From contig JAJQGJ010000012.1 in NCBI GenBank assembly GCA_021200565.1, positions 195,464 through 259,463 on the forward strand: 64,000 nt of DNA, given 5' to 3'. Below, piece by piece: positions 3,261 to 19,104 of this stretch. Origin of the DNA: Oscillospiraceae bacterium. GTDB lineage: Bacteria > Bacillota > Clostridia > Oscillospirales > Ruminococcaceae. Every line of letters begins with the position of its first letter. Position 1 is the first letter of the stretch. Below the pieces are notes generated by a model. It had not been told where the DNA came from and searched no databases. It was given only the letters and a program-made list of their open reading frames with translations. A program made the translations under genes and the position numbers.

Positions 3261-3424
3261 ACCTCTCCGTCCGCACCTGCGATGCGTCCACCTCCCCTTA
3301 TCAAGGGAGGCTTAATGTCGTTCTCCTAAAAGCTTGTAAAGAGGCAAAAAAAGGCTCCCCTGTTAAGGGGAGCGCATAAGTTCGCAAGCGAACTTGGAAA
3401 GATCTGCTTCGCAAACTCTGACTA
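3261..3424. repeat. Intergenic palindromic element, family A (diverged)
   Basis: ACCTCTCCGTC opens the element and an ACTCTGACTAAGGGA-like end closes it. Inner GGCTCCCCTGTTAAGGGGAGC and AAGTTCGCAAGCGAACTT hairpins match those of other family A copies. It separates the two tandem lipoprotein genes. Confidence 0.65.
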
Positions 3425-3429
3425 AGGGA

Positions 3430-4887: not shown

Positions 4888-5140
4888 TACATTACCTCCT
4901 GTTTACCTGAATCCAAGTAAATTTTTAGCTCTAAAATTCAAAAACCGCGCTGTTCGCACGGCTGTTTTCAACCCCGATTTGTCAAAAAAGAAATGGGAGG
5001 TACGAAAGTGAAATTTCAGTGCTTTTTTATTATACACCTTTTCACAAAACTTTGCAACATGACATAATGCACAAGATATGCCGGCTGATTTTGTGCAAGT
5101 TGCATAGGTGGGCGGTGGAAATCTGTAACCCCCGTGTAAC

Positions 5141-5169
5141 TTGACAATTTTACGGTCTTAGAGTAATAT
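5141..5169 (+). promoter_or_regulatory. Sigma-A promoter of glmM
   Basis: TTGACA (5141-5146) is followed after 17 bases by TAATAT (5164-5169), about 34 bases before the glmM start. The rest of the 316-base gap from 4887 to 5203 shows no gene that I can support. Confidence 0.75.
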
Positions 5170-5202
5170 ATTATAATAGATTTCATTATGAGGAGACTTG
5201 GT

Positions 5203-6573
5203 ATGTCTAAGTATTTCGGAACTGATGGGTTTCGGGGCGAGGCTAACGTCGGGCTGACGGCTGAGCACGCTTTCAAGGTCGGAAGATTTTTAGGATGGTA
5301 CTACACAGAGCTGAGACACCGTAGCGGCGATGACAGCTCTGCTAAAATAGTTATAGGAAAAGACACACGGCGTTCGAGCTATATGTTTGAATATTCTTTG
5401 GGCGGAGGCTTGACAGCTTCGGGAGCAGACGCATATCTTCTGCACGTCACGACGACTCCGTCTGTTGCGCACGTTGTCGCAACTGAGGATTTCGACTGCG
5501 GAATCATGATTTCTGCAAGCCATAATCCCTACTACGACAACGGCATCAAGCTTATAGGCTCGAGCGGCGAGAAGATGGACGAGGAAGTCATAAGCTTAGT
5601 CGAAGATTATCTTGACGGCAGGCTTCATGTTTTCGGGGAGGATTTCCCCGAGATTCCCTTCGCACACAAAGAGAATATCGGCAGAACTGTCGACTATATA
5701 GAGGGCAGGAATCGTTACATAGGCTATCTCATTTCTCTTGGGATGTTCTCTTTCAGAGGAGTGAAAGTAGGGCTCGACTGCGCAAACGGCGCAAGCTGGC
5801 ATATTGCAAGGGCTGTTTTTGATGCGCTTGGTGCCAAAACCTACGCCATCAACACCGAGCCTAATGGATTCAACATAAACCTGGATGCGGGTTCTACCCA
5901 CATCGAAGCGCTTCAGAAGCATGTTCTTGAAAATCACCTTGACGTCGGCTTTGCCTATGACGGCGACGCTGACAGATGCATAGCCGTTGACGAGAAAGGA
6001 AACGTCGTCACCGGCGACCACATTCTCTACATCTGCGGCAAATATATGCGTTCCCGTGGAGAGCTCTCAAACAACACAGTTGTCACAACGGTCATGTCGA
6101 ACCTTGGGCTCTACAAGGCTTTTGACCGTGAGGGCATCGACTACGCAAAAACCGCCGTTGGCGACAAGTATGTATATGAATATATGAGCGGGAATGGCTG
6201 CAGACTCGGCGGCGAGCAGTCGGGACACATCATCTTCTCGAAGTATGCCGGCACCGGAGACGGAATCCTCACGAGCCTCAAGCTTATGGAAGTGATGCTT
6301 TCGGAGAAGAAGACGCTTTCCCAGCTCTGCGAGGGATTGCAGATTTACCCACAGGTTCTGGTTAACGTAAAAGTAGCCGATAAAGAAGCAACTCTCAGCG
6401 ATCCGAAAGTGAAAGAAGCTATCGAGAAAGCTTCTGAAGCTCTCGGAGATAGCGGAAGAATTTTAGTGAGAGCTTCCGGGACTGAGCCGCTTGTCAGAGT
6501 TATGGCGGAAGCCGAGACAGAGGAACTTTGCAAAAAATATACGGATGATATAGTCGAAGTTATCGAGGGATAA
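5203..6573 (+). CDS. glmM: Phosphoglucosamine mutase
   Basis: GlmM converts glucosamine-6-phosphate to glucosamine-1-phosphate for UDP-GlcNAc and peptidoglycan synthesis. In 456 residues it shows FGTDGFRG at the N-terminus, the phosphoserine loop ISASHNP with Ser106 as the likely catalytic serine, the metal-binding DGDAD loop, the sugar-binding GEQSGH and the phosphate-binding RASGTEPLVRV. I start it at 5203 because AGGAG is correctly spaced there; the upstream ATG at 5188 overlaps that site. It lies directly before glmS, so the two consecutive steps of amino-sugar synthesis are encoded together. A family A repeat separates them. Confidence 0.96.
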   Translation: MSKYFGTDGFRGEANVGLTAEHAFKVGRFLGWYYTELRHRSGDDSSAKIVIGKDTRRSSYMFEYSLGGGLTASGADAYLLHVTTTPSVAHVVATEDFDCGIMISASHNPYYDNGIKLIGSSGEKMDEEVISLVEDYLDGRLHVFGEDFPEIPFAHKENIGRTVDYIEGRNRYIGYLISLGMFSFRGVKVGLDCANGASWHIARAVFDALGAKTYAINTEPNGFNINLDAGSTHIEALQKHVLENHLDVGFAYDGDADRCIAVDEKGNVVTGDHILYICGKYMRSRGELSNNTVVTTVMSNLGLYKAFDREGIDYAKTAVGDKYVYEYMSGNGCRLGGEQSGHIIFSKYAGTGDGILTSLKLMEVMLSEKKTLSQLCEGLQIYPQVLVNVKVADKEATLSDPKVKEAIEKASEALGDSGRILVRASGTEPLVRVMAEAETEELCKKYTDDIVEVIEG

Positions 6574-6650
6574 CCTCTCAGTCAGAGTTGCGAAGCAACT
6601 CTCGAAGTTCGCTTGCGAACTTCTGCGCTCACCCTTAGTAAGGGGAGCCA
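6573..6650. repeat. Intergenic palindromic element, family A (partial)
   Basis: Begins ACCTCTCAGTCAGAGTTGCG just after the glmM stop codon. It contains the GAAGTTCGCTTGCGAACTTC hairpin and the AGTAAGGGGAGCC end seen in other copies. It fills most of the glmM-glmS gap. Confidence 0.7.
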
Positions 6651-6688
6651 TAATTGGTTCTTTACAACGCAACAAAGGAGGCAAAATT

Positions 6689-8527
6689 ATGTGTGGTATT
6701 GTCGGATATTCGGGGCTTAAGCAGGCGGGTCCTATTCTTTTGGATGGGCTTTCGAGGCTTGAATACAGAGGCTATGACTCTGCCGGAATCGCTGTCAGGG
6801 ACGGCAACGGTGAGATAAACGTCGTCAAGGCTAAAGGCAGGCTTTCGGTTCTTATGGAGAAAACTGACTCGGGAAAGGCTCTTTCGGGCACATGCGGAGT
6901 CGGTCACACAAGATGGGCGACGCACGGTGCACCGTCCGAGATAAACGCCCATCCTCATAAGTCTGACGACGGAAACGTTGTCGGAATCCACAACGGAATC
7001 ATCGAAAACTACAAGGAGCTGAAAGAACTCCTCGAGAAGAACGGCTACAGCTTCTACTCCTCAACCGACACCGAGGTCGCAATCAAGCTTATTGATTACT
7101 ACTATAAAAAAGGCTCAGGAAGCCCGATTGACGCCCTCACCCGTGCTATGACGAGAATTTCCGGCTCATATGCATTTGCCGTCATGTTCAAGGATTTCCC
7201 CGACGAGATTTTTGCAGCAAGAAAAGACAGCCCGATTATCGTCGGAGTGAATGGCGATGAGTCGTTCCTGGCGTCGGACGTTCCGGCAATTCTCAAGTAT
7301 ACCAGAAGCGTCTATTATATCGGGAACTATGAAATAGCTCATCTCTCGGGCGGAAGCGTCGACTTCTACAACATCGACGGCGAGAAGATTGAAAAAGAGC
7401 TCAGCGAGATCAAATGGGATGCTGCAACCGCTGAGAAAGCCGGCTACGAGCACTTCATGATAAAAGAGATTCACGAGCAGCCGGAAGCGGTTAAGAATAC
7501 GCTGTCATCTGTCATCCATAACGGAAAGATTGATTTGAGTTCCGTCGGAATTTCTGACGAGGAGCTTAAGAGCATCAGCCAGATTTACATAGTCGCATGC
7601 GGTTCGGCTTACCATGTCGGGGCTGTCATGCAGTATGTGATTGAAGACCTGGCTGGAATCCCAGTGCGGGTTGAGCTCGCATCCGAATTCAGATACAGAA
7701 AACCTGTTTTAGACAAAAACGGGCTCTGCATCATCATAAGCCAGTCGGGAGAGACCGCCGACAGCCTTGCAGCCCTGAGAGAGGCGAAGAGCCGTGGGCT
7801 CAGGACTCTTGCCATCGTCAACGTCGTCGGAAGCTCAATAGCACGTGAAGCGGACAACGTCTTCTACACCCTTGCAGGTCCTGAAATTGCGGTTGCAACC
7901 ACCAAGGCATATTCGGCGCAGCTTGTCGCCGGGTACACCTTTGCCGTGCAGCTGGCTTATGTCCTTGAGAAAATCGACGATGCGAAATATTCTGACCTGA
8001 TTTCGGAGCTCTTAACGCTTCCCGAAAAGATTGAAAAGATCCTTGAAGACAAGGAGCGGCTGCAGTGGTTCGCAGCAAAGCAATCGTCATCTACTGATAT
8101 ATTCTTCATCGGGCGTGGCATCGACTATGCCATCAGCCTTGAGGGCAGCCTCAAGATGAAGGAGATTTCCTATATCCATTCGGAATCCTACGCCGCCGGC
8201 GAGCTGAAGCACGGCGCAATAAGCCTTATCGAAGACGGCACCTTGGTTGTCGGTTGCCTGACGCAGAGCGAGCTCTACGAAAAGACGGTCAGCAACATGG
8301 TCGAGTGCCAGAGCCGTGGTGCCTATCTCATGGCAGTCACAACCGACGGCAACTACAACACCGAAGACATCGCCGACTTCACAGTCTATATTCCCGAAAC
8401 CGACTCGCATTTTGCAGCATCACTGGCAGTGGTGCCGCTCCAGCTGATGAGCTACTACGTCTCCTTGGCAAAGGGACTGGATGTGGATAAGCCAAGGAAT
8501 CTGGCGAAGAGTGTGACTGTGGAATAA
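6689..8527 (+). CDS. glmS: Glutamine-fructose-6-phosphate aminotransferase (isomerizing)
   Basis: GlmS makes glucosamine-6-phosphate from fructose-6-phosphate and glutamine. The 612-residue protein has the N-terminal nucleophile Cys2 in MCGIVGYSG, the glutaminase motifs YRGYDSAG and GHTRWATHG, and two SIS sugar-isomerase domains (for example SQSGETADSL). AAAGGAGG precedes the ATG. The 116-base upstream gap is taken up by a repeat and leaves no room for a standard glmS ribozyme. A strong terminator follows. Confidence 0.97.
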   Translation: MCGIVGYSGLKQAGPILLDGLSRLEYRGYDSAGIAVRDGNGEINVVKAKGRLSVLMEKTDSGKALSGTCGVGHTRWATHGAPSEINAHPHKSDDGNVVGIHNGIIENYKELKELLEKNGYSFYSSTDTEVAIKLIDYYYKKGSGSPIDALTRAMTRISGSYAFAVMFKDFPDEIFAARKDSPIIVGVNGDESFLASDVPAILKYTRSVYYIGNYEIAHLSGGSVDFYNIDGEKIEKELSEIKWDAATAEKAGYEHFMIKEIHEQPEAVKNTLSSVIHNGKIDLSSVGISDEELKSISQIYIVACGSAYHVGAVMQYVIEDLAGIPVRVELASEFRYRKPVLDKNGLCIIISQSGETADSLAALREAKSRGLRTLAIVNVVGSSIAREADNVFYTLAGPEIAVATTKAYSAQLVAGYTFAVQLAYVLEKIDDAKYSDLISELLTLPEKIEKILEDKERLQWFAAKQSSSTDIFFIGRGIDYAISLEGSLKMKEISYIHSESYAAGELKHGAISLIEDGTLVVGCLTQSELYEKTVSNMVECQSRGAYLMAVTTDGNYNTEDIADFTVYIPETDSHFAASLAVVPLQLMSYYVSLAKGLDVDKPRNLAKSVTVE

Positions 8528-8547
8528 ACTACAGTGTAGATACAGAA

Positions 8548-8583
8548 AGAGCTCACAGACCTTTTTATCAGTCTGTGAGCTTT
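8548..8583. terminator. Bidirectional terminator between glmS and the anti-sigma-like gene
   Basis: AGCTCACAGAC (8550-8560) pairs with GTCTGTGAGCT (8571-8581) around a 10-base T-rich loop, with A and T runs outside. It serves glmS on the plus strand and the island gene ending at 8601 on the minus strand. It marks the left edge of the island. Confidence 0.8.
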
Positions 8584-8600
8584 GTTTATTGCCTGTTTCG

Positions 8601-9200
8601 TCAGTCGGCAGACGCCACAACAACCTTGAATTCTCCCTCAACGAGGTTATCGATGCTTCCCATAAGCAAAGCACCGCTTCTTTCCATCGGGATTTCTCTC
8701 ATACTGCCATCTGAGTACTTGACAGTTACCGATATGTTTTCATCGCCGATTTCTTTTGTGTTGATCTGAACAAACAGCTGACCGCTGCCAGAGTCAAATG
8801 AGATGTATGTCTTTTCATCGTTGACATCCTCAAGCCTGGAAGTATTCACCTGATAGTCGCCCGTTCCTCTGGTTGCAAGGCTCATTGCAGGCATAAAGCT
8901 GATTGCCGCAGTAGCCTGATCAAGCTGCTGCAGAACAGAATCGATTCCTGTGGAAACCTTGTCTTTAACAACACTGATTACTGCGAGAATCCTACTCCCA
9001 ACTGTCTCTTCAACTGTTTCTTCATACTCAACAGGCGAGCCTATAGTGTCAATCACTGCCACTGCCGCAAAAAATTCGTCATAACAATCCTTGCAGGTTT
9101 TAAGGTGCTCCATCAGATTTCTCTCATCCTCAGTGTATGGGATCTCTTCTACCGTTGCTGTTGCCAACGATAAAATTTCTTCATCAGTTAAATGTTTCAT
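8601..9200 (-). CDS. ZAS/zf-HC2 anti-sigma-like protein (no membrane segment)
   Basis: This 199-residue protein has His3 and then His32-x3-Cys36-x2-Cys39 (HLKTCKDC), the zinc-binding arrangement of ZAS-domain anti-sigma factors. A middle segment of roughly residues 60-105 is helical. The C-terminal half (about 110-199) is beta-rich, with SGSGQLFVQINT and SMREIPMERSG text, and I do not recognise it. I see no transmembrane helix, so it is probably cytoplasmic. Its ATG overlaps the stop of the sigma-like gene by four bases (ATGA), so the pair is translationally coupled. The natural reading is that it holds or senses for that sigma factor; this is inference from motif and position. Confidence 0.65.
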   Translation of the reverse strand: MKHLTDEEILSLATATVEEIPYTEDERNLMEHLKTCKDCYDEFFAAVAVIDTIGSPVEYEETVEETVGSRILAVISVVKDKVSTGIDSVLQQLDQATAAISFMPAMSLATRGTGDYQVNTSRLEDVNDEKTYISFDSGSGQLFVQINTKEIGDENISVTVKYSDGSMREIPMERSGALLMGSIDNLVEGEFKVVVASAD

Positions 9201-10090
9201 CTTGCTTTTCCTCCTCTGATTAACTCTCCTATAACTGTGTCCTTAGTGTAGTAATCTTCGAAAACACTCCTTATGTCATCTCGATCTTTGACAATATCAC
9301 ATACCTTTTTGAATGTCTCTTCGAATACAAAGTTCTCCTTATGCCCTATTTGTTTTTGATCGTAAAGCTTGGTATAGATAGCATCTCCACGTTTGACTCT
9401 ATCTCCATCAACTTCAATAAGCTCTGACAGTTTATCTAAGAAGCTCTGTCCCCATGTAAGCGTTTTATCCTGAAGTTCTTCTCTGATAATCTCTTCCGAC
9501 TCTCGCCGTAATTCGTCGAAACTCTTTCCTTCCATCCTCTTATATGCCCATTTTGGGGAAGTAGCCTTGGTCTCCACAATTTCATCAAGCATATGAGGAA
9601 GCAATCTCGCATAACAAAAGGCAAGCAAGCCATCTGCATACAGCTCCGAATTAAAAATAACAGGACAATATATGTGATACACCTTTACAGACGCAGATCT
9701 CCGTCTGTCATCCTCGTAGGTTGTGTCATTAGCAGGTATATCTATGATATTACCATCATTGTCGATTATAGGTTCAGTTGGTTTTCTTTTCTGATCTCGA
9801 TGAATATCACGAGTTGAATTTGAATATATCCTACGGGCATAGCCAGCAAATGCATCAACTTTCTTTGCCTTTTTCTCATTAACACTTTTGATATGCAAAA
9901 AAATTCCCTCATGAGAGTTAGCCACAACTTCTCCTACATTGGTATGGCTAAAACTCTTACCAAGCAAGTTTTTTACTTGACCAATGCAATAAGAGTCCAA
10001 TAGCTTAAAAAGCAAATCAAAATCTTCGCTTGCCATGGTTTCACAGCACCTTAGGTATACTTCCTGAATTTCCTTGGTTTTTTGCCCCAT
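9197..10090 (-). CDS. Divergent sigma-70-like RNA polymerase sigma factor
   Basis: The 297-residue protein has a sigma region 2-like segment at roughly residues 24-110. It runs from DFDLLFKLLDSYCIGQVKNLL to a FAGYARRIYSNSTRDIHRDQKRKP stretch that matches the pattern of regions 2.3-2.4 (aromatic, basic, then D-x-x-R-x-x-K-R). No clear region 4 helix-turn-helix is visible; the remaining 180 residues are helical and unrecognised. The ATG at 10090 overlaps the end of the small upstream gene; a second start at 10036 (MASEDFD) is possible. The base composition is more A+T-rich than in the flanking housekeeping genes. Four copies of a candidate ECF-type promoter occur in this island, which supports the sigma assignment. 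Confidence 0.55.
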   Translation of the reverse strand: MGQKTKEIQEVYLRCCETMASEDFDLLFKLLDSYCIGQVKNLLGKSFSHTNVGEVVANSHEGIFLHIKSVNEKKAKKVDAFAGYARRIYSNSTRDIHRDQKRKPTEPIIDNDGNIIDIPANDTTYEDDRRRSASVKVYHIYCPVIFNSELYADGLLAFCYARLLPHMLDEIVETKATSPKWAYKRMEGKSFDELRRESEEIIREELQDKTLTWGQSFLDKLSELIEVDGDRVKRGDAIYTKLYDQKQIGHKENFVFEETFKKVCDIVKDRDDIRSVFEDYYTKDTVIGELIRGGKAR

Positions 10091-10200
10091 TCATCAGACT
10101 TTTTATCAGACTTTTTTTGAAGTGCTGATATAACTTCTTCTTGTCTTTGAAGATATTCTACATCTTCTATTTGCCCCTGATTGTTTTTTACTTCCATCAT
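10051..10200 (-). CDS. Small basic protein, 49 residues, unknown function
   Basis: A textbook GAAGGAGGACAAC site precedes an ATG at 10200, 17 bases after the stop of the CHAT gene. The product starts MMEVKNNQGQIEDVEYLQRQ and ends in a lysine/arginine-rich tail (KKSDEWGKKPRKFRKYT). It overlaps the start of the sigma-like gene by about 40 bases, which suggests translational coupling. I recognise no domain. It could be a regulator or a CHAT substrate, but nothing in the sequence decides. Confidence 0.6.
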   Translation of the reverse strand: MMEVKNNQGQIEDVEYLQRQEEVISALQKKSDKKSDEWGKKPRKFRKYT

Positions 10201-10216
10201 GTTGTCCTCCTTCTTG

Positions 10217-13200
10217 TCAATAACACTGGTAGCAGGAAAAGCCTCCCCAGTATGCCTCATTTCTGAACGGCTTTCTTCTGTCATCCATACTCTTGTATTT
10301 TTGCAACGTTTCCATCATCCGAGGCTCCATCTCCTCCTTTCTTATGTCGTCAAACCAATGATTTTCCCGTAGCTCTCCAACGGTAACATTTCTCAGATAT
10401 TCTTTGGCAATACTGAGTGCTTCCGGCGGGGATTTTTTATTTTTAAGGTACTGACGGTAAAACTCGTCCATCAGAATGGTTGTGCTGAAATCTGCTGCTT
10501 CCCACAGATGCGAGATGACGTAGTGAACGCCTGCCGCCGAAAAGGCACTGATCATGCCGTGAAAGCTTCTGCTCAGGCTTATATCATTCATTCCGCTCAA
10601 GCAGGACGAAAGAACCACAAGCTCGGTGGAGCTGAGATCAAGTCTGCTGATTTCATCGGCGGTTACTATGCCATTTCCATACAAATCATCAGCTCTTCCT
10701 GCCTCAAACCGGTTGTCAGCACCGGCAAACAGAAGGTATGATGAAAACATGGAGTTCGTATTCTGCCCGAGGTCAAACATTCCGTGAGTTGCTACATGAA
10801 TGTTTCTGTAGCCGCTTGCAGAAAGCAAGAGGTCCTTTCTGGCATAGATTCCGGTATAGTAAGGGCTTCCACTCATCTCACTTATGCGCCTTGCCTCTAT
10901 TGCCGCAAAAGGAAGCTGCCTTGTGTGCGGTGCATCTGAAGAACGTGTATCCTCACGCTCTGGGGCGTCATGGATTTCTTCTTCGATTTCACGTGGACGG
11001 ATGTCATACTTAGGATTGCCTATAATCAGCTCACCCATGGTTGCATCCGAAGCATCACCTGAGTACAGGAAGTCCCTGGCGCACTCTATTCTGACGATAT
11101 TGTGCTTGTCCTGCAACCGCTCCTGCTCGTCGCCATAAAGAATCTCAAGCGGAAGATTCACAAGCAAGCTGTCAGGAGCGATATAGACTGTCCTGAACTC
11201 CTCAACATAAGGCAAAATCGGCAGAATCAACCTGTCATACAGGCTTTTTCTGAGCACTTCAAGCCTGAACAGCTGCTCAGGCGTCGCCTTGTCCTTGGAC
11301 ACCTCCTGGAGAATAGCTGTAAACTCCTCAGTATCATCAAGCAAAGAGATGCCATCCTTGACGGTAAACCTGTTCAGCCTGCATTCACCATTCTTTTTCC
11401 GGATTATGTATATATCGATTCCCGCTTCAACCTCCTTGTCCAGAAGGTCTGACAGCGTCTGACCATAGCTCAGTGTGCAATAGAAGAATTCCAGAACAAC
11501 GCAGTTATCAGGAACGGCTTTCTTCACCTTTTCCCATGTAATATCGGTAACCTCATTGACATGAGGAAACCTCTCCGCAAAATCAGCTTCCAGTGTCCGG
11601 AGCTTTGCCTTAACCTCAGCTGTTTCAGCTTCAGTGTCACTGAATGTACCGGCATCTTCCAAAACTGAAAGCCTGTCCTGAAGAGTCCGGATTTCTTTCA
11701 TCAAAGCCTCGCTTACGTCACTCTGATGCAGCAGTCTGTTCCGCTCTCTTCCCGCCAGAGAAGCAAGGGTCTTGAACCTGAGCACATTCTCATAAACTGA
11801 GCTGACATCCTGAAACCGCCTTAGTGTGGAGTAGCAGGTTGTAAAATTCATCTGGGTTGGGCTGAGAATCTGCAGCAGCCTTTCATCATTCAGGTATCTT
11901 ATATATGATTTCCATATGCCGTCAATCTCTTGTAACGCTTGCGTGGTATAACGGATACCGGTATTGTAGAAGCCGCATTTGCAATAGTATGCGCCGGCTG
12001 ACACCAGAACTGCCAAGCGGATTGACATCGAAACATTGTCATCTTCCATACGTTTGATAGCATCACGATAGTAGTAGTCGGTATTCTTATCGCCGAATGC
12101 CTGTGACAGAAGCGCAAGATAACTGTCAAGACCCACCCGCTGTGATACATTCATCTCAGGCAAGGCTTTCCTGTATGCTATTCCAAGCGCTTTCTTGCAT
12201 ATTTGTAGCTCGGCTCTTGTGATGATTCTATACGTAGCAAACTCACCCGCACAGCTGCCTACAAATGCTGCCGCCTCGCATATGCACTCCTCAGTTTCAG
12301 GGTCTGATTTTATTATATCCCTGCAAGTGTCCATTGCAATTCCTTTTAGAGTATGCGCATAATCATCTTCCAGTTTGACAAGGGATAATGAATAAAGACT
12401 CATCATAAGTCCGAGAACACGATAGCTGTCAGTAAGTGAAAGCTCTTCATTATCAACGGCATCCAGAAGCTCCGGCAAAACAGTATTTGCCATCTCCAGG
12501 TCATTCTGAATATAGTAGATGAACAGAAGATTGGTCTTTATCAGAGTATCAGATAAAACCTCCGATATTTCAGGATCTACCTTTGCAGCAAGCGCATCAT
12601 TAAAAGCGACCTCAGCCTGTATGTAATCCCCAGTCTTAATGTAATAGCCGCCTAAAAGATTTTTATAGAGGCGGATATTTACCAAAGAGTCCTTCATATG
12701 GTCATACTTAAAGGCTATCGGTTCAAGCAGAGATAGCAAACGCCTGTATTCTTCAAAATCATCTATCTGATTCAAATCATGTAGCAGAAAATAAAGTGTT
12801 CTGCCTTCAAATATTTTTGCGTGCACGATATAGTCGTCTGCGAAATCATAATAACCGCTTTCGATTCTGTCGACGAAGGATACAAGAAACTTCCGATCCT
12901 TCTCGCTGTGCGTGGACAGATATGATTCTATCGCTATTTCGATTTTTGCTAAAGTAGTAAACCAGTTGTCTTCCCCGAGCACTGATTTTCTTATCTCATA
13001 GCACCTTTCATAAAGCTCCAGGGAAGCCTCCTTGTCTCCCTGCTGATGCTTGACTCCGGCATAGAACCAGCAGAAATCACTGATGTACAGATTGCTGCCT
13101 TTCCTGAAATACTTCTCATTATCTTCTACGATGCGGGCTACAGTGTCTGGAGATATTTCAGAAATCCTGACAAGTACTGTTGCCACAATTTCCTGAAACC

Positions 13201-13777
13201 TGATCAGGGAATCTCTCTTTCTGCTTATGACGCAGAAGTTTTCAAGAATCAGCACACCATAGTCCGGGTCATAACTGTTGATAAAGAAATCAGCCATATT
13301 CAGAACCAGGAAGCACACATCATCGGACAGCTCTCCCTTTGCCGCTTTGGATATAGCATATTCCTTTCTGAAGTAATCAAGAATTACCGTTTCGCTTCCG
13401 GGACAGGCTATCATAAGAATATCAAGTATGTCAAGCTTAGCGGAAGGGTCTGATCTTCTGTAACGATAGATGTCACCAAAATACTTTTCAGCTGATTTTA
13501 TATCCTCCCCGAGCTGCTCATGCATTTCAGAGTAATACCTGCTTTTCATGAGCTTGCAGCAGACGTTTATGCGAATACACAGAAGAGCAAATATTCTGAG
13601 ATTGCGCTGTTTCTCCTGGATTCTGTAATCGTCGTCATCCGGCAGCTCTTCACCATACTTCTGCGCAAGAATCAGCGTGGCAATCTGAGAAATCAGGCTG
13701 TCGTTGGACGCTTCCTCCTCAGCCTCAATATCCGCTGAAAGCTTTTTAAACTGTTCATACAGCTCGCTGTCGCCCAT
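10217..13777 (-). CDS. CHAT-domain caspase-fold protease with TPR-like N-terminal region
   Basis: The first 700 or so of 1186 residues are helical repeats of TPR type, for example DKEASLELYERCYEIRKSVLGEDN and TGDYIQAEVAFNDALAAK. A short coiled coil follows (about 700-770), and then a C-terminal CHAT domain. The CHAT catalytic pair is visible: His about 998 in NIHVATHGMFD and Cys about 1059 in ELVVLSSCLSG. YIAPDSLLVNLPLEIL upstream is the usual entry to this fold. CHAT proteases cleave protein partners when their TPR sensor is triggered (as in the gasdermin-cleaving and Craspase systems). Here the neighbours are a sigma/anti-sigma pair and a peptide-maturation operon, so the substrate may be one of these. 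It heads the minus-strand operon. Confidence 0.85.
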   Translation of the reverse strand: MGDSELYEQFKKLSADIEAEEEASNDSLISQIATLILAQKYGEELPDDDDYRIQEKQRNLRIFALLCIRINVCCKLMKSRYYSEMHEQLGEDIKSAEKYFGDIYRYRRSDPSAKLDILDILMIACPGSETVILDYFRKEYAISKAAKGELSDDVCFLVLNMADFFINSYDPDYGVLILENFCVISRKRDSLIRFQEIVATVLVRISEISPDTVARIVEDNEKYFRKGSNLYISDFCWFYAGVKHQQGDKEASLELYERCYEIRKSVLGEDNWFTTLAKIEIAIESYLSTHSEKDRKFLVSFVDRIESGYYDFADDYIVHAKIFEGRTLYFLLHDLNQIDDFEEYRRLLSLLEPIAFKYDHMKDSLVNIRLYKNLLGGYYIKTGDYIQAEVAFNDALAAKVDPEISEVLSDTLIKTNLLFIYYIQNDLEMANTVLPELLDAVDNEELSLTDSYRVLGLMMSLYSLSLVKLEDDYAHTLKGIAMDTCRDIIKSDPETEECICEAAAFVGSCAGEFATYRIITRAELQICKKALGIAYRKALPEMNVSQRVGLDSYLALLSQAFGDKNTDYYYRDAIKRMEDDNVSMSIRLAVLVSAGAYYCKCGFYNTGIRYTTQALQEIDGIWKSYIRYLNDERLLQILSPTQMNFTTCYSTLRRFQDVSSVYENVLRFKTLASLAGRERNRLLHQSDVSEALMKEIRTLQDRLSVLEDAGTFSDTEAETAEVKAKLRTLEADFAERFPHVNEVTDITWEKVKKAVPDNCVVLEFFYCTLSYGQTLSDLLDKEVEAGIDIYIIRKKNGECRLNRFTVKDGISLLDDTEEFTAILQEVSKDKATPEQLFRLEVLRKSLYDRLILPILPYVEEFRTVYIAPDSLLVNLPLEILYGDEQERLQDKHNIVRIECARDFLYSGDASDATMGELIIGNPKYDIRPREIEEEIHDAPEREDTRSSDAPHTRQLPFAAIEARRISEMSGSPYYTGIYARKDLLLSASGYRNIHVATHGMFDLGQNTNSMFSSYLLFAGADNRFEAGRADDLYGNGIVTADEISRLDLSSTELVVLSSCLSGMNDISLSRSFHGMISAFSAAGVHYVISHLWEAADFSTTILMDEFYRQYLKNKKSPPEALSIAKEYLRNVTVGELRENHWFDDIRKEEMEPRMMETLQKYKSMDDRRKPFRNEAYWGGFSCYQCY

Positions 13778-13828
13778 GAAATCACTTCCAATGCTATGTC
13801 CAAATATCTATAATCCAGGTTTCTCTAT

Positions 13829-13855
13829 ATTAGTCGTCGGTATTTCGGTTTTCCC
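13829..13855 (-). promoter_or_regulatory. Island promoter motif, copy 1 (CHAT operon)
   Basis: On the minus strand GGGAAAA (13855-13849), 11 bases, then ACGACTAAT (13837-13829). It is about 50 bases before the CHAT start codon. Same bipartite motif and spacing as the copies at 13946, 16457 and 16900; proposed to be read by the island sigma-like factor. Confidence 0.65.
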
Positions 13856-13893
13856 GACTGATTCCTGAAATTTTTTCAACAAAAACTAATAGA

Positions 13894-13923
13894 AGTATAG
13901 CATATCAGGATGAAAAAAGTCAA
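13894..13923 (-). promoter_or_regulatory. Candidate sigma-A promoter upstream of the CHAT operon
   Basis: On the minus strand TTGACT (13923-13918) and TATACT (13899-13894) are separated by 18 bases. This would give basal housekeeping transcription of CHAT and the sigma-like gene, with the island motif closer to the gene adding autoregulation. Confidence 0.6.
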
Positions 13924-13945
13924 CGGAGTGCAGCACTATAACGAC

Positions 13946-13972
13946 GGGAAAAATGAATTTTGTGCGACTAAT
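13946..13972 (+). promoter_or_regulatory. Island promoter motif, copy 2 (M50/E1 operon)
   Basis: GGGAAAA (13946-13952), 11 bases, then GCGACTAAT (13964-13972). It is about 34 bases before the M50 protease ATG at 14006, a normal promoter distance. Confidence 0.65.
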
Positions 13973-14005
13973 GAGATATAAAACAGAAAGCGAGGCTTAC
14001 TACAT

Positions 14006-15070
14006 ATGACCACACCTATTATCGGAAATCACATCGATATATATGATGGCGATGGACAAAGCGTCTGTGTTTTCAACAGAAACACTTCAAAAACCTACTC
14101 CATAGGCTTGAAAGAAGCTTCCGTCCTGAGAAAGCTGGATGGAAAAAATACCATCGAAGACATTCAGAGGGAATGCAGCTGGTATACACAAAGCGAAATC
14201 TCGGAGCTCATCAGTGCATTCGAAAAAATCGGCTTGTTTGGTTTGCAAAAGAAGAAATTCAACCTTCTGAAAATCAAACTGCCGCTGTTCAGTCCCAACA
14301 AGGTATTCAGCAAAGACAGCAAACTGACAACCGCCTTATTCTGCTTTTACTGTGTCGTTTGTCCTGTCCTGTTTGTAGTCGGAATACTGACTAATCTTTT
14401 CTCGGATAACTCAGCGCTGGGTACTCAGGACTTGCTTGCAGAGCTTCAGAGGATAACTCCTCTGGATATTGTGTTATTAGTCGTCACAGTCTGCGGATGT
14501 CTTTTGCTTCATGAGCTGGGGCATGCAGTTTCTGCCAGGCACTTCGGAGTTCCCGTGCCGGAAATCGGCGTAATGCTCTACTACTTCATGCCCTGTGCTT
14601 ATGCCAATATCTCCGGAATAAATCTTCTTGAGAAGAAGCTGCCGAAGCTTCTGTCACTCAGCGCAGGAACATTTTTCAACCTTGGAGCCATTGGTGTGTG
14701 CTATCTTTTGCTGAGCTTTACGTCATCTCTTCATCTGCAGGCATTGCTTCTTATCATAATTCTTCTGAATGCGGCAACCATCTTTACAAACGGAATGGTT
14801 TTCATCAAGTTTGATGCCTACTATATCTTAGAGGTTTTGCTCGATGAGCCAAATCTGAAGGAAAAAGCCAAGAAGCACTTCATCTCCTATATCGGGATTC
14901 TTTTCAATAATCGCCCAATGCTGAAGCAATTCCACGAATCCTTGAGGTCAAATGATAGTGCATTTCTTACGCACATAATGTATTGCGCTTTCTCGGTGAT
15001 TTCGCTTATCTATGTTCCAGCTTTGCTCCTGAACACCATTCTTCCAATAGTTCTCAGCATAATTTTTTAG
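14006..15070 (+). CDS. M50-family membrane metalloprotease with PqqD-like N-terminal region
   Basis: This is a 354-residue intramembrane zinc protease of the site-2 protease group. HELGH (residues 169-173) lies in a membrane helix, and the second metal/active-site segment is probably NGMVFIKFDAYYI around residue 265. About six hydrophobic segments are visible. Residues 1-80 form a soluble winged-helix-like region (SVLRKLDGKNTIEDIQRE...ISELISAFEKIGLF), as in PqqD-type recognition domains fused to peptide metalloproteases. That suggests it recognises a peptide leader. It is 15 bases from the E1-like gene and upstream of two small peptide genes with hydrophobic cores, so it may cut or release them in the membrane. 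The substrate is inferred. Confidence 0.8.
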   Translation: MTTPIIGNHIDIYDGDGQSVCVFNRNTSKTYSIGLKEASVLRKLDGKNTIEDIQRECSWYTQSEISELISAFEKIGLFGLQKKKFNLLKIKLPLFSPNKVFSKDSKLTTALFCFYCVVCPVLFVVGILTNLFSDNSALGTQDLLAELQRITPLDIVLLVVTVCGCLLLHELGHAVSARHFGVPVPEIGVMLYYFMPCAYANISGINLLEKKLPKLLSLSAGTFFNLGAIGVCYLLLSFTSSLHLQALLLIIILLNAATIFTNGMVFIKFDAYYILEVLLDEPNLKEKAKKHFISYIGILFNNRPMLKQFHESLRSNDSAFLTHIMYCAFSVISLIYVPALLLNTILPIVLSIIF

Positions 15071-15085
15071 AAAGAAGGATTTTTC

Positions 15086-15778
15086 ATGAAGTACACATTG
15101 AACCCATACACAATTATATCTGAAAGCGAAAACAGCTTTACCTTCATGGGTAAAGCCAACAAAACCATCACTGCCACCTTGAATGACAGCCAGAAGCAGC
15201 TGCTCGATGAGCTGTCAAAAGGAAGCTTTCTTGAAAGCGAGCTTCTCAAAGGCTCATTCGGAGAAGAGCTGTATAGCTCCCTTATTGAGAATGCTTCTCT
15301 CGTCGACACAGAGGCTGACACAACCAGCTATACTTCACGTACCTATGCTTTTTACAACACCTTTGGAATGGAAAACGCCGCCAAAATCCTCAGCGACAAG
15401 CGTGTCCTAGTCCTCGGATGTGGAGGAATAGGGACACACCTTGCGTGGCACCTTCTGTCGATGGGTGTCGGACACATCACACTTCTTGATTTCGATACCG
15501 TCGAAGTCAGCAACCTCAACCGCCAGCTTCTTTTTGACAGCCTTGACGCAGGGCAAAAGAAGACAGAGGTTCTGAAAAACAAGCTTCTACGTATAAAGCC
15601 GGATGCCGATATTGAGACCATCGACCTGAAAATCGACTCTTCTGAGACTCTGGATGCCGTTTGCAGCGCATCGCAGTATGACCTGATCATCAAAGCTCTT
15701 GACACGCCGCTCATGATTTCTCATTGGGTTGATGAGGTGTGTAAGTCGCACCATATTCCATATATATATCAGGTATAA
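15086..15778 (+). CDS. ThiF/E1-like adenylating enzyme, N-terminal part (frameshifted)
   Basis: ThiF/E1 enzymes adenylate a peptide or protein C-terminus, as MccB does in microcin C7. This frame has a leader-binding-like N-terminal region (1-75), the nucleotide loop GCGGIG (111-116), and LLDFDTVEVSNLNRQ with the conserved Asp, Asn and Arg. It then stops after 230 residues at TAA 15776-15778. The missing half (SGITARESVLIGPTYIPGRY onward) continues without a stop in another frame to 16413. The break lies at a TATATATAT run (15761-15769). Removing one TA unit would restore ...PYISGITA.... AGAAGGAT precedes the ATG. This is a real or assembly-level frameshift in one gene of about 442 codons. Confidence 0.75.
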   Translation: MKYTLNPYTIISESENSFTFMGKANKTITATLNDSQKQLLDELSKGSFLESELLKGSFGEELYSSLIENASLVDTEADTTSYTSRTYAFYNTFGMENAAKILSDKRVLVLGCGGIGTHLAWHLLSMGVGHITLLDFDTVEVSNLNRQLLFDSLDAGQKKTEVLKNKLLRIKPDADIETIDLKIDSSETLDAVCSASQYDLIIKALDTPLMISHWVDEVCKSHHIPYIYQV

Positions 15779-16413
15779 CTGCCAGGGAGTCTGTCCTAAT
15801 CGGTCCTACGTATATTCCCGGAAGATATGATTCAGGCTGGACTGATCTCGTTCCGGCGTCCGTGCAGGGAAGCAGATACTTCGGCACCTCTCCAAGCCTC
15901 GGCATGATGCTCTACCATATTTCCGATGAAATCGCAACCGAAGCTTTCAAGGTGCTGACCGGCTACGGTGTTCCTAAATATGGAAGCAGGGTTGTCGCCC
16001 GGAATATCTTCACTAACGAGGAAGCCACCTTTGGCAGTTCCTCCGACAAGGCGAGCGCAGATATGCAGCCGAAAACAAGTCAGGGAAAAGCCTTTTTGCT
16101 CGGGCTGCTTCTCATACTGTGCACTTCAATAGCATCAATATCTGCGATGCCATTCGCACTTGTTAGCGTGGCACTGTCTCTGGCACTTCCCTGGCTGATA
16201 TACAATTCAGGAAAAGAAATATCTAAATCAACACTTATATATTCCATGCTGTCATCACTGGCGCTGCTGATAATAAACATCAGCAAAGTGAGCATATCCG
16301 TCGGGATTTCATCATTTATTGCGACTATAGTTATGTACTTCGGAATTGCAAGCATTGCTGTATTGGCTTGCTGCTTGATCAATGCAGCTGTGATCAGACT
16401 GAAGCACCTGTAA
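15772..16413 (+). pseudogene. ThiF/E1-like enzyme, C-terminal part with membrane tail (out of frame)
   Basis: This frame continues the E1-like fold (GITARESVLIGPTYIPG, then FGTSPSLGMMLYHISDEIA) and ends in about four transmembrane helices from roughly 16085 on. The intact protein would therefore be a membrane-tethered adenylating enzyme, which is unusual for ThiF proteins. An internal ATG could start at 15862 or later, but no convincing ribosome binding site supports a separate gene. The sequence stays open and well conserved in character, so the break is recent, phase-variable or a sequencing error. Confidence 0.65.
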
Positions 16414-16456
16414 TATGAACCCGGCAGATTTTTAAAAAAAGTTTTTCAGATTTGTC

Positions 16457-16483
16457 GGGAAAACATTCCAAGCTGCGACTTAT
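16457..16483 (+). promoter_or_regulatory. Island promoter motif, copy 3 (peptide genes)
   Basis: GGGAAAA (16457-16463), 11 bases, then GCGACTTAT (16475-16483). It is 47 bases before the first peptide start. It lets the two peptides be transcribed separately from the enzymes upstream. Confidence 0.65.
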
Positions 16484-16529
16484 ATGATGTAAGGCAAAAC
16501 AAATGCCAAACCTGAAAGGAGGGTTGAAA

Positions 16530-16649
16530 ATGTTCGAGATCAAAGAAGTTGCTTCCGTTGAAGCTACCGGCTCACTCATAGGCAGCGCAATCGCATGCGT
16601 CGGCACCTGGGGCTCTGTTGCACTCTTACTCATGGCTTTTTCCTGCTGA
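16530..16649 (+). CDS. Candidate precursor peptide 1 (39 residues)
   Basis: An excellent GAAAGGAGG site precedes the ATG. The product has a charged leader (MFEIKEV...VEATG, residues 1-14) followed by a hydrophobic 25-residue core rich in Gly, Ala, Ser and Leu. Cys23 lies in the core and Cys39 is the last residue. It shares 20 of 39 positions with peptide 2, including 13 of the first 14 residues, Gly18, Cys23, Gly25, Met35, Ala36 and Cys39. Third-position changes in the leader show that it is kept by selection at the protein level. Position after the M50 and E1-like genes marks it as the likely substrate of that machinery. No known peptide family is recognised. Confidence 0.75.
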   Translation: MFEIKEVASVEATGSLIGSAIACVGTWGSVALLLMAFSC

Positions 16650-16694
16650 TACAATCATCAGCAAACCAAATCTATCACAGAGAGGAGGATAAAT

Positions 16695-16814
16695 ATGTTC
16701 GAGATCAAAGAGGTTTCCTCTGTTGAGGCTACCGGCACCTTCTGGGGCACCGTAGCAGGATGCATCGGAAACGTAACCGCCGCAATTTTCCTCGGTATGG
16801 CTCTGGCTTGCTAA
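16695..16814 (+). CDS. Candidate precursor peptide 2 (39 residues)
   Basis: This gene starts 45 bases after peptide 1 and has its own AGAGGAGG site. It has the same length, leader (MFEIKEVSSVEATG), Cys23 and C-terminal Cys39 as peptide 1, but the core differs in detail: Trp17 instead of Trp27, and Gly at 14, 18, 22, 25 and 34. Two co-made peptides with a common leader and variable hydrophobic cores resemble two-component bacteriocins or modified signalling peptides. That comparison is structural only. A terminator follows immediately, so transcripts may be mainly peptide-only. Confidence 0.75.
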   Translation: MFEIKEVSSVEATGTFWGTVAGCIGNVTAAIFLGMALAC

Positions 16815-16848
16815 ACCAGCCACAACCATCCTGAATACCTGGCCCTTA

Positions 16849-16887
16849 GGCTCACAGGCTGCTGACCCGGTCTGTGAGCGATTTTTT
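16849..16887 (+). terminator. Terminator after the peptide genes
   Basis: GCTCACAG (16850-16857) pairs with CTGTGAGC (16872-16879) and is followed by GATTTTTT. It separates high peptide expression from the downstream AAA-like and VirD4-like genes, which have their own promoter motif. Confidence 0.75.
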
Positions 16888-16899
16888 ACTTCGGCTATT

Positions 16900-16926
16900 G
16901 GGAAAATATCCTTCCGTGCGACTATA
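16900..16926 (+). promoter_or_regulatory. Island promoter motif, copy 4 (AAA-like/VirD4-like operon)
   Basis: GGGAAAA (16900-16906), 11 bases, then GCGACTATA (16918-16926). It is 33 bases before the ATG at 16959 and just after a terminator, where a promoter is needed. Confidence 0.65.
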
Positions 16927-16958
16927 TGAGTGTAAAAAACTGAATGGAGGCATACGAA

Positions 16959-17738
16959 ATGAACAGTAAAGAAAAAAGAGCCGAATTGCAGAGCATTCTC
17001 TCTATAATCGATGAGAATTGCTGTCCTAATTTCTTCCTGACCGGAAGGTCATATTCTTCTCTTGAGAAAAGGGCTATTGATCTGGCTGATGAGATTCAGA
17101 AAAGAAAACTTGTTGATTTCTCTGGAACCAAACAGGACTTCAGCATCGTCATTCCCTACTTCAACGAGCCCGGGGCAGCCAAATCCTTCGTTGATCGCTT
17201 AGCTGAAAGCATAAGCATCGCAAGGGATTGCTATTATCAGTACCGAGGCATAGTCATAATTGAATTCGACAAAGAGTGGAGCAAAAGAGGAATAAACAAC
17301 CCTTTGAGAACGGTGTTTGACTATATAAAAAGTCAGAAAGAGCTGTGCTTCATACTCTTAGCAATTAATAGTAAAGAGTCGGATTACATTAGTTCTATAT
17401 ACAATGAACTGTGCAGTATGGATCTGTGGCTGCCGTTAGAGGTTGAATCAGCTTCACCGGAAGAATGCTTAGACTACGTCAAAGCAACCGCCGGGCACTT
17501 TAAGCTGAGCATTCCGGAAGACGTGAGCGAAGCTCTGCTTAAGATGTTCAGGCAGCGTGATGAGACGAATATTTCAAATGAGGAGGCTGCTGAGAGCCTC
17601 GTCAAACAGATACTGTTCAAAAGGCTTGTCAATTCAAATCATAGCCCTGAAATCGATATTTCAGAAATCAGCTACTTGAACAGCTCTTCCAGAGCTCACT
17701 TTTCAAGGCAGATTGGATTTATCCCGGACAACAGATAG
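16959..17738 (+). CDS. Degenerate AAA-like protein, unknown function
   Basis: I chose the ATG at 16959 because TGGAGG sits 8 bases upstream; the in-frame ATG at 16944 overlaps that site. The 259-residue product has the order of an AAA+ fold. It has a strand and loop FFLTGRSYSSLEKRA where a Walker A would be, but without the GxxxxGK[ST] signature. It also has a Walker B-like GIVIIEFDKEW, a sensor-1-like CFILLAINSKE, and a helical C-terminal lid. If the reading is right it cannot bind ATP normally and may act as an adaptor. It is followed after about 10 bases by the VirD4-like ATPase, so the two probably work together. Confidence 0.5.
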   Translation: MNSKEKRAELQSILSIIDENCCPNFFLTGRSYSSLEKRAIDLADEIQKRKLVDFSGTKQDFSIVIPYFNEPGAAKSFVDRLAESISIARDCYYQYRGIVIIEFDKEWSKRGINNPLRTVFDYIKSQKELCFILLAINSKESDYISSIYNELCSMDLWLPLEVESASPEECLDYVKATAGHFKLSIPEDVSEALLKMFRQRDETNISNEEAAESLVKQILFKRLVNSNHSPEIDISEISYLNSSSRAHFSRQIGFIPDNR

Positions 17739-17748
17739 GAGGATACAA

Positions 17749-19104
17749 ATGCTACAGGATGGACTTATTTATCAGGACTCACACATGTCCTCAACAGAAG
17801 ACTTTATCAAAGGGCTGCAGCCCTTTACTCCCGGTGATGGCGGCAATCACTCATCGGGAGGACCCGTCCTCTTTGCCGACGGCAAGAGGCTCTACACCGA
17901 TTCGAGCGAATCACATACCCTGATCAGCGGCGATACCGGCTCAGGGAAAACGCTTCGCTACATACTTCCTATGATATATTCCTGTGCTGATGCAGGAGAA
18001 TCGATGGTCATTATCGACCCGAAGGGTGAGCTTGTGACCAAGGCAACCCCCTTTCTGAGAGAAAAGGGCTACCGCCCAGTGGTCATCAATCTCAGAAGCC
18101 CCCAGAATTCTCCCGATTCCTTCAATCCGTTCGGAAAAATCAATAAGCTTTACTTTTCGGGTGACAAGGACAGTGCAATTCTGATGCTCAATGACCTGAT
18201 AGACAAGCTGTTTATCAGCAGATCAGCAGCCGACAAGGATAAATACTGGAACGAATCAGCAGGGCAGTTTGCTCTCGGGATATGCAAGCTTATTCTCAGA
18301 CTCGGCGAGAAGCTGACGATAGGCGAGCTTCTTGACTGGCGTTATGGGAAGTATCCGGAGGGCAAGCTGAAGGATCTCTTTCAGACGTTGCCGGCAAGCA
18401 GCGACGCTTATCAGGATCTTGCGGGAATCATGACGCTGACTGCCGAAAACACGAAATCGTGTATACTTTCGACCTTCGACCAGCTTATCCGGCTGTTCAA
18501 AGCCGCACCCTCGCTAACGAATATGTTGTCAGAATCCACATTTGATATTGACGACATCGGCTTGAAAAGAACAGCAATTTTCCTTGTCGTCCCCGATGAA
18601 AAAACGACATTTCACTTTTTGGCAACGCTTTTTATCAGCCAATGCTACGAGTCATTGGTAGAAATGGCTGACCTGCTTGGAGGCAGACTTCCGAAAAGGG
18701 TGAACTTCATTCTGGAAGAATTCTGCAATATGCCTATGCTGCCGGACATGGTGTCAATGCTGACCGCCGCACGCAGCCGCAACATCAGATTCCACCTGGT
18801 CATTCAGTCTTATGAACAACTGGTGGACAAGTATGGCGAGCATGTCAGCAAAACCATCCTCGACAACTGCGCAACACTTATCTATTTGCATAGCCGGGAG
18901 CTCTCATTCCTGCAATACATAAGCCAGCTGGCAGGAAACAACGAATTCAACAGACCTCTTTTGCCGGTGTCAAGACTGCAGCGAATACAGAAAAATGAGA
19001 ACATCATTTTCAGAGACAGGTGCTATCCCTGCCTCGTCAAGGACATCCCGATGATTTTTGATTACCAGGTTGAGCTTGGCAGTGTTATGCCACGAAGCGC
19101 CTGA
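17749..19104 (+). CDS. VirD4/TraG-type coupling ATPase, soluble and without a conjugation system
   Basis: This 451-residue protein has Walker A GDTGSGKT (61-68), the DPKGEL motif typical of type IV coupling proteins (about 88-93), and a Walker B-like FILEEFCNMP followed by ARSRNIRFHLVIQSYEQL, the VirD4 box. AGGAGG precedes the ATG at 17749 and overlaps the stop of the AAA-like gene. It lacks the usual N-terminal membrane helices. No relaxase, VirB4 or mating-pair genes are nearby. In VirD4 systems such ATPases deliver proteins or DNA to a secretion channel; here it may deliver or extract the small peptides or another partner. That role is inference. Confidence 0.8.
   Translation: MLQDGLIYQDSHMSSTEDFIKGLQPFTPGDGGNHSSGGPVLFADGKRLYTDSSESHTLISGDTGSGKTLRYILPMIYSCADAGESMVIIDPKGELVTKATPFLREKGYRPVVINLRSPQNSPDSFNPFGKINKLYFSGDKDSAILMLNDLIDKLFISRSAADKDKYWNESAGQFALGICKLILRLGEKLTIGELLDWRYGKYPEGKLKDLFQTLPASSDAYQDLAGIMTLTAENTKSCILSTFDQLIRLFKAAPSLTNMLSESTFDIDDIGLKRTAIFLVVPDEKTTFHFLATLFISQCYESLVEMADLLGGRLPKRVNFILEEFCNMPMLPDMVSMLTAARSRNIRFHLVIQSYEQLVDKYGEHVSKTILDNCATLIYLHSRELSFLQYISQLAGNNEFNRPLLPVSRLQRIQKNENIIFRDRCYPCLVKDIPMIFDYQVELGSVMPRSA

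Follow-up and report, generated by a model that had tools for sequence, protein, structure and literature searches.

Three kinds of described system each resemble a part of a gene cluster that we analyzed in a stretch of 64,000 nucleotides from an Oscillospiraceae gut bacterium (assembly GCA_021200565.1, contig JAJQGJ010000012.1, positions 195,464 to 259,463; hereafter the window). Its peptide half recalls the daptides, which are encoded with MpaA/B/C/D/M/P and in which the carboxylate of a C-terminal Thr is replaced (PMC10036551). The substitutions named there give the leader positions E-8, L-7, D-6, P-5, M-4, E-3 and P-1, of which L-7 and M-4 are essential; position -2 is not among them. Its putative peptide-modifying enzyme recalls the ThiF-like enzymes MccB, PaaA, GrcB, EnfB and IndF, which act on ribosomally synthesized and post-translationally modified peptides (RiPPs; PMC12250964, PMC12150305); fusions of a RiPP recognition element (RRE) to ThiF are known in large numbers, with 27,400 candidates (PMC12150305). 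Its regulatory half recalls the type III-E CRISPR circuit, in which the TPR-CHAT protease Csx29 cuts the inhibitor Csx30 and so frees CASP-sigma (PMC10028731).

The cluster lies in a genome of 2.18 Mb in 24 contigs (G000). Two divergent arms fill the span of about ten kilobases from the end of glmS (8527) to 19104, the first three genes below forming the left arm and the remaining ones the right arm.

8601..9200, minus strand: zinc-binding anti-sigma (ZAS)-like protein, 199 amino acid residues (aa), with the ZAS motif HLKTCKDC, a middle stretch FMPAMSLATRG and a C-terminal domain that weakly matches Rib
9197..10090, minus strand: sigma-like factor, 297 aa (TIGR02937; Sigma70_r2 and NF041236 in homologues)
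10217..13777, minus strand: TPR-CHAT protease, 1186 aa, His998/Cys1059 (Pfam CHAT, 7.4e-38)
13832..13855, minus strand: regulon promoter motif before the CHAT-sigma-ZAS operon
13946..13969, plus strand: regulon promoter motif before M50-ThiF
14006..15070, plus strand: M50 intramembrane metalloprotease, 354 aa, HELGH; N-terminal stretch reading by eye like PqqD/RRE
15086..15778, plus strand: ThiF/E1-like adenylyltransferase, N-terminal and catalytic part, GCGGIG (PF00899, 1.8e-38); the frame ends here
15862..16413, plus strand: rest of the E1-like protein, read in a different frame and including a hydrophobic tail; corresponds by homology to residues 226-441 of the sister-species protein (L004, see below)
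16457..16480, plus strand: regulon promoter motif before the peptide genes
16530..16649, plus strand: precursor peptide A (39 aa) with leader MFEIKEVASVEAT and a hydrophobic core whose last residue is Cys
16695..16814, plus strand: precursor peptide B (39 aa) with leader MFEIKEVSSVEAT and a hydrophobic core whose last residue is Cys
16900..16923, plus strand: regulon promoter motif before the 264-aa gene and virD4
16944..17738, plus strand: 264-aa protein of unassigned fold, start perhaps ATG 16959, no Pfam match
17749..19104, plus strand: VirD4-like ATPase of the CD1115 family, 451 aa (NF045973, 261 bits, above the cut-off of 250)

On balance we favor reading the cluster as a sigma regulon in which a CHAT-freed sigma factor would switch on modified membrane peptides and a DNA-handling pair as an emergency program. 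Sequence evidence supports both the regulon and the RiPP module well; the biological role is what we infer. A preliminary description of the window, made from its letters, had listed CHAT, a ZAS motif, HELGH, GCGGIG, twin 39-aa peptides and VirD4, and all of these are present according to Pfam, NCBIfam and the sequence. It had also called the system a candidate for an undescribed one. This holds for the gene combination, of which we found no description in the open-access literature at the level of titles and abstracts (most subscription papers lie outside that scope), but not for the peptide half, which appears to be a RiPP module related to the daptides and thus has known kin.

The sequence GGGAAAA-N12-CGACT occurs exactly four times in the window, once before each of the four cluster units (0.01 expected), and none of 100 shuffles of the window reached four sites. 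The whole genome contains six exact sites versus none for a reversed control: the fifth lies in front of a DEDD-exonuclease-like gene (contig 5), and the sixth, within an open frame with other genes around it, is probably due to chance. In the sister species of the same genus (G002; cluster locus L004), six sites with at most two mismatches were found versus 0.04 expected, and a seventh, exact in a shorter form, lies before M50. The L004 sites precede CHAT, M50, the peptides, the 264-aa gene, an exonuclease gene, a unit with a JAB-domain protein and a second M50 gene. The eleven sites of the window and L004 begin 61-100 bases upstream of the assumed start codons (ATG 16959 for the 264-aa gene), and a longer TCGGG form begins 80 bases before the CHAT start codon. 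These results support, at the sequence level, a single regulon, presumably under sigma control, and they bear out the earlier claim that a common promoter motif ties the units together, the motif being conserved before the same units in the sister species. With CHAT's own operon among the four units, the circuit would be self-amplifying. The list of sites is a ready-made regulon for expression work.

In the regulatory arm, His998 and Cys1059 are invariant across the three CHAT homologues; TPR matches N-terminal of the CHAT domain are weak (best 1.6e-05, below the Pfam cut-off). The window sigma factor matches the general extracytoplasmic function (ECF) model TIGR02937 weakly (6.7e-05, below cut-off). 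This model and Pfam Sigma70_r2 (best 1.6e-05) match all three sigma homologues, and NF041236 CAS_III-E_sigma matches two of the three (best 1.8e-07); comparison of the sigma factor with the PDB gave no sigma-factor match. The H-x3-C-x2-C motif is invariant in all three anti-sigma homologues, and the best PDB match of their profile is RsiW (E 0.022, residues 7-46), with Pfam zf-HC2 at only 0.1 and Rib at 0.00035, below cut-off. ZAS anti-sigma circuits of the RsiW-SigW type use membrane proteases. The cluster shares with them the N-terminal Hx3Cx2C domain and the weak RsiW profile match; it differs in that the anti-sigma protein has no hydrophobic 19-mer, so no membrane segment, and in that CHAT takes the place of the membrane proteases. 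The three genes adjoin one another in all three species that have CHAT. On its trigger, the TPR-CHAT protease would cut the cytosolic ZAS protein and thereby free the sigma factor; as cut site we propose FMPAMSLATRG, a stretch conserved in the middle of the anti-sigma homologues. Of the earlier suggestion that CHAT frees the sigma factor, the grouping of the trio in three species and the III-E-like sigma factors in two of three homologues stand, and the proposed cleavage is a good analogy to the III-E circuit.

The analogy can be taken further, to a CRISPR-free relative of Craspase in which a CHAT-freed CASP-like sigma factor would launch a new RiPP class together with VirD4 and the exonuclease, for defense against invaders or altruistic death. 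We hold this version only tentatively. Common to both systems are a TPR-CHAT protein with a His/Cys dyad (the TPR matches here being below cut-off), an ECF-type sigma factor with a likely inhibitor, and several copies of a promoter motif in the locus (PMC10028731). The inhibitor is ZAS/RsiW-like here, and the output consists of a RiPP and probably DNA-handling genes. We found no CRISPR in the window (no Rfam match, no exact 22-base repeats starting 30-78 bases apart) and no Cas gene, Cas7-11 included, among 20 island open reading frames (ORFs) searched with Pfam, the search being limited to that region. The cluster offers a compact, testable case of CHAT/sigma pairs without CRISPR.

M50, ThiF and leader-bearing peptide genes occur together in all five M50-ThiF loci, i.e. 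the window, L004, an Oscillospiraceae metagenome-assembled genome (L007), a Lachnoclostridium metagenome-assembled genome (L012) and a genome of the family of L012 (L115), as expected from the earlier proposal that the peptides belong with the M50 and E1-like enzymes. Small ORFs were either picked by eye or filtered for length, ribosome sites and leader-like sequence. The window M50 protein matches NF041824 daptide_HExxH with 116 bits (2.1e-33) and a LiaK/YydH model with 45 bits; the NF041824 scores of its relatives in L007, L012 and L115 are 133, 138 and 128 bits. With the equivalog cut-off at 300, these proteases appear homologous, not equivalent, to the daptide-type protease. A scan of the genome collection with a three-sequence M50 profile gave three loci. 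At the class level 82 of 391 genomes match the profile, mostly over a short HExxH stretch, and the seven M50 loci outside the own genome that score stronger than 1e-12 have no ThiF within the 3.4-13.5 kb surveyed per locus. In the family of L012, six of 299 sampled genomes match at 1e-8, and in two of them, that of L012 included, ThiF stands next to M50.

The close tie between protease and peptides bears on the possibility that CHAT is the executioner itself, cleaving the peptides or membrane partners directly, with the sigma factor only setting the dose. Caspase-like proteases cleave gasdermins, and in favor of such a scheme are intact His/Cys residues, short hydrophobic peptides and a CHAT gene inside the same regulon. 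We nevertheless consider it unlikely, given that M50 adjoins the peptides in all five loci, two of which have no CHAT relative within the 16-18 kb surveyed, that the peptide leaders carry a daptide-like cleavage motif, and that the CHAT gene stands beside sigma and anti-sigma in all three species.

Peptides A and B are 51% identical, and the nine Cys peptides share the leader consensus F-(E/A)-I-x-E-(V/I)-xx-(V/I/L)-(E/D)-A-(T/P). Compared by eye with the daptide leader, it fits the two hydrophobic positions, position -3 by residue type and position -1 for L012 and L115. Like daptide clusters, these loci encode at least two short hydrophobic precursors with a similar leader, a C-terminal residue predicted here to be modified, and a related protease, the daptide version of which is an RRE-peptidase fusion (PMC10036551). 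They differ from daptides in the C-terminal residue: nine of the ten peptides of the M50-ThiF loci end in Cys, including all of those in the window, L004, L007 and L012, in place of the invariant Thr, and the tenth, in L115, ends in Thr. The daptide precursor model NF041808 does not match the window peptides at E<=1 (peptide A scanned with a longer start) or the L115 Cys peptide, and gives 0.0043 for the L115 Thr peptide. They also differ in enzymes, the ThiF-like adenylyltransferase replacing decarboxylase, aminotransferase and methyltransferase; no MpaB/C/D-type oxidoreductase, aminotransferase or accessory gene is found among the ten cluster ORFs. L115 combines both types: at 1766-11231 (minus strand) a Cys peptide and a Thr peptide lie side by side, with ThiF, YcaO, a second M50 and a short-chain dehydrogenase/reductase (SDR) oxidoreductase, and it is the only one of the five loci where a daptide-type aminotransferase was found (NF041821, 334 bits, 1.1e-99, cut-off 450); MpaB was not recognised there. 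This suggests that the daptide and ThiF chemistries, by convergence, act on the same terminus of one type of peptide.

At M50 loci without ThiF that carry twin leader-like ORFs (L087, L117, L119), all six peptides end in Thr. A strict Cys/Thr rule was rejected in favor of a mere tendency, as L090 has a Cys-ending ORF with no ThiF in view and small ORFs at L116 and L118 end in Lys and Gly; no leader-like peptides were picked out at L086, L088, L089, L091, L092 and L120. The L090 ORF is one of three Gly/Cys-rich small ORFs before the M50 gene of a 3.4-kb contig (157-703), possibly another type of peptide on the same protease family. In L007, three tandem, near-identical tiny ORFs (MTETRCRGRP), with similar upstream stretches, lie right behind ThiF (1540-1790, minus strand).

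The preliminary description had named an E1-like enzyme. Its GCGGIG motif and ThiF homology were confirmed, and its gene is broken by a frameshift in the window, the L004 counterpart being a single intact frame of 441 aa (PF00899, 2.8e-40). The break lies at an AT-dinucleotide tract (window 15760-15790) whose length differs from that in the intact sister gene; it could reflect phase variation, decay or an assembly error. The continuation at 15862..16413 has a dN/dS of 0.19. Among solved structures, the profile of the ThiF family matches MccB best (7e-33), then MoeB, with PaaA lower (1e-19). The glycine-rich loop and Arg146, Lys159 and Asp206 (ATP/metal residues) are kept in all four intact proteins; the last three would correspond to Arg167, Lys180 and Asp225 of EnfB, equated by spacing only. 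No Cys is common to the four intact proteins, and none has a CxxC. Conserved Arg/Lys/Asp, an adjoining precursor gene and, as predicted here, ATP-dependent activation of a peptide carboxylate are shared with MccB, PaaA, GrcB, EnfB and IndF (PMC12250964, PMC12150305). Distinct from these enzymes are a hydrophobic tail (present in both ThiF proteins checked for it) and the daptide-like leader and protease alongside. The window peptides end in Cys, not Asn as for MccB and microcin C, lack the WWIVI or NWYFI ends of the EnfB and IndF substrates, and have no Glu in the core, which GrcB needs for its Glu-Cys thiolactone (PMC12250964).

The window cores contain no charged residue, so the C-terminal Cys carboxylate is the sole core carboxylate to activate. 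Asp and Glu are also absent from the L007 and L115 Cys-peptide cores, and the two L012 cores have one and two; a GrcB-type thiolactone was accordingly rejected for the window peptides and is compatible with the L012 cores. In three of the four cores from the window and L007, an internal Cys lies 16 residues upstream of the C-terminal one. A thiolactone with this Cys was rejected as a rule for the class, the internal Cys being absent from L007 peptide B, L012 peptide A and the L115 Cys peptide. By analogy with its family, the ThiF-like enzyme would adenylate the alpha-carboxylate of the C-terminal Cys, leading to a neutral group or a ring; the attacker may be the internal Cys, the freed N-terminus or a small amine (as reported for EnfB). 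Any such attack would remove the last negative charge, as daptide enzymes do by another route. M50 would remove the leader after EAT/EAP, and the product would be a pair of membrane-active helices following daptide logic. If so, the module represents a RiPP branch where an E1-like enzyme masks the C-terminal carboxylate of a membrane peptide.

YcaO genes lie beside or near ThiF in L012 and L115. ThiF proteins in YcaO clusters have been described purely as docking domains (PMC12150305), and YcaO enzymes also occur in daptide clusters, where they make imidazoline (PMC12338566). ThiF might by the same token merely dock here, the peptides being modified otherwise or not at all. This seems improbable: ATP and metal residues are kept in four of four proteins, the best solved relative is the active enzyme MccB, and neither the window nor L004 nor the short L007 contig yielded a relative of the L012 YcaO.

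The 264-aa gene adjoins virD4 in all three genus genomes that have it. An AAA fold guessed for the 264-aa protein by reading found no support in Pfam, PHROGs or the PDB profile comparison (best E 0.064). In the sister species a DEDD exonuclease gene (RNase_T, 5e-19) with the same promoter motif lies directly behind virD4; the window genome has a homologue of it on a different contig, likewise preceded by the motif. Because the exonuclease shares this promoter, DNA work fits the pair better than peptide export does, and most likely the 264-aa protein and VirD4 (with the exonuclease in the sister species) handle DNA. The earlier idea of VirD4 as peptide delivery machinery finds no backing: VirD4 has no hydrophobic 19-mer, hence no membrane segment, the 20 island ORFs scanned with Pfam (the ten cluster ORFs included) contain no relaxase or other gene of a type IV secretion system, and the third genus species (G001) has the pair, with the motif in front and a frame-broken VirD4, and no match to the window-type M50. 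PADLOC matches of VirD4 (mad8, 7.7e-09; a literature search on mad8 gave no useful result), ThiF (E1-E2, best 9.6e-19) and the anti-sigma protein (0.0069) look like general similarity and were rejected as defense identities.

Taken together, the likeliest purpose of the favored regulon would be an emergency program against a rival or invading DNA, with the peptides hitting the membranes of the cell itself or its neighbors. A number of observations weigh against it. Since the motif pattern was derived from the four window sites to begin with, it is tested fairly only by the remaining genome and by the other species; at two mismatches it matches in 30 of 31 genus genomes, close to the reversed control and hence noise, for which reason only near-exact sites in context were counted. 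In G001 the trio and the 264-aa/virD4 pair are on different contigs, the motif near the CHAT operon points away from CHAT, toward the expected place of the second arm, and CHAT itself is faced by a sigma70-like promoter, read by eye. The three species belong to one genus and are not independent. The window sigma copy does not match NF041236, and the two sigma matches to that model are known by E-value, not against its cut-off. Kinship of CHAT with Csx29 is without support, the PDB search giving no match for the single protein at 0.01 and none for the profile at E<=1. Comparison at the profile level was negative for PqqD in M50 and did not reveal an RRE in M50 or ThiF; no immunity or export gene was recognised among the cluster ORFs with Pfam or NCBIfam; and the frameshifted ThiF may leave the peptides unfinished in the window genome. 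No relatives of CHAT, sigma or ZAS were found in the L012 (18.4 kb) and L115 (16.0 kb) regions or the L007 contig (4.7 kb), from which it follows that the RiPP module does not need them everywhere. Overall, the interpretation given in the preliminary description is partly supported.

Within the genus, three of 31 genomes have CHAT (at 1e-5), and these three alone also have the 264-aa protein (at 1e-3); in each of them sigma and ZAS adjoin CHAT, and VirD4 adjoins the 264-aa gene. M50 was found in three of 60 relatives, the own genome included, one being a weak 24% match. The sigma profile gave no other match in an order-level sample of 394 genomes, which holds five other genus species and neither G001 nor G002. 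The trio and the VirD4 pair thus go together, the RiPP module being found in two of these three species. In G001, the N-terminal region of CHAT is shortened by about 130 aa.

Comparison with the sister species gave dN/dS values of 0.06 to 0.29 for ten gene pairs (ThiF in two pieces), those of the peptides resting on five and six changes. The dS values are 0.11-0.26 for CHAT, M50, ThiF and the peptides, 0.56 for the 264-aa gene, 0.72 for ZAS, 0.90 for VirD4 and 1.85 for sigma. At the protein level, sigma is 38-40% and anti-sigma 75-77% identical to the counterpart, with the CHAT and M50 neighbors at 92-96%. The cluster is a mosaic, in which the regulator pair was probably exchanged while the promoter motif was retained.

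A mosaic of synonymous divergence could also arise if remnants of a conjugative element had come to lie by chance beside a bacteriocin cluster, with the VirD4 pair and the sigma operon unconnected to the peptides. VirD4 belongs to a conjugation family (CD1115) and is frame-broken in G001, an ORF near the sister-species cluster reads by eye like a serine-recombinase fragment, and the insertion behind glmS (about 20.6 kb, see below) is absent from four relatives. This account strikes us as quite improbable in view of the common motif before each unit, kept in the sister species at the same distances, the purifying selection on all units, and the occurrence of CHAT and the 264-aa protein in the same three of 31 genomes and, at the limits used, in none of the other 28.

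The sister-species locus also holds a JAB-domain protein and a second M50 protease downstream of extra copies of the regulon motif (L004, 600-3900); small genes around them look decayed by eye. The JAB protein (Prok-JAB, 0.00087, below cut-off) is encoded in a unit that has a regulon motif to itself. A ubiquitin-like tagging or defense system, with the E1-like enzyme attaching the peptides and the JAB protein removing them, is highly improbable, since no E2-like or ubiquitin-like protein was recognised, ThiF comes closest to MccB, the 39-aa peptides are hydrophobic and leader-bearing, and no JAB relative was found in the window or eight other loci examined. On contig 5 of the window genome (L053, 10406-11335), the motif-bearing exonuclease gene lies next to a 29-aa remnant of the second M50 found in the sister species, which suggests that parts of the regulon are mobile.

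Four relatives carry, immediately after glmS or no more than about 350 bases from it, the genes found from about 29166 onward in the window; the intervening 8531-29166, about 20.6 kb 3' of glmS, has no counterpart at that place in them. Besides the cluster it comprises another block, made up of four ABC-ATPase genes along with HTH, vWA, TetR and nitroreductase genes. The sister species has glmS on one contig and the cluster on another. A Tn7-like island was considered, given the insertion directly 3' of glmS, and rejected, as the ten ORFs of the right half include no transposition genes. An origin from a phage or plasmid was rejected as well: viral contigs gave no relative for the M50 profile, the leader pattern or the 264-aa profile and 13 partial ThiF matches, the phage collection lying outside this search, and plasmids gave no match for sigma or the 264-aa protein, 11 distant M50 matches and 378 ThiF records, none covering 80%. 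A terminator-like stem, GCTCACAGAC/GTCTGTGAGC or a near form of it, is found at 8551-8580 and 16870 in the window and also in L004 and L154. Recurring at the ends of regulon units, it could be a recombination site for their shuffling.

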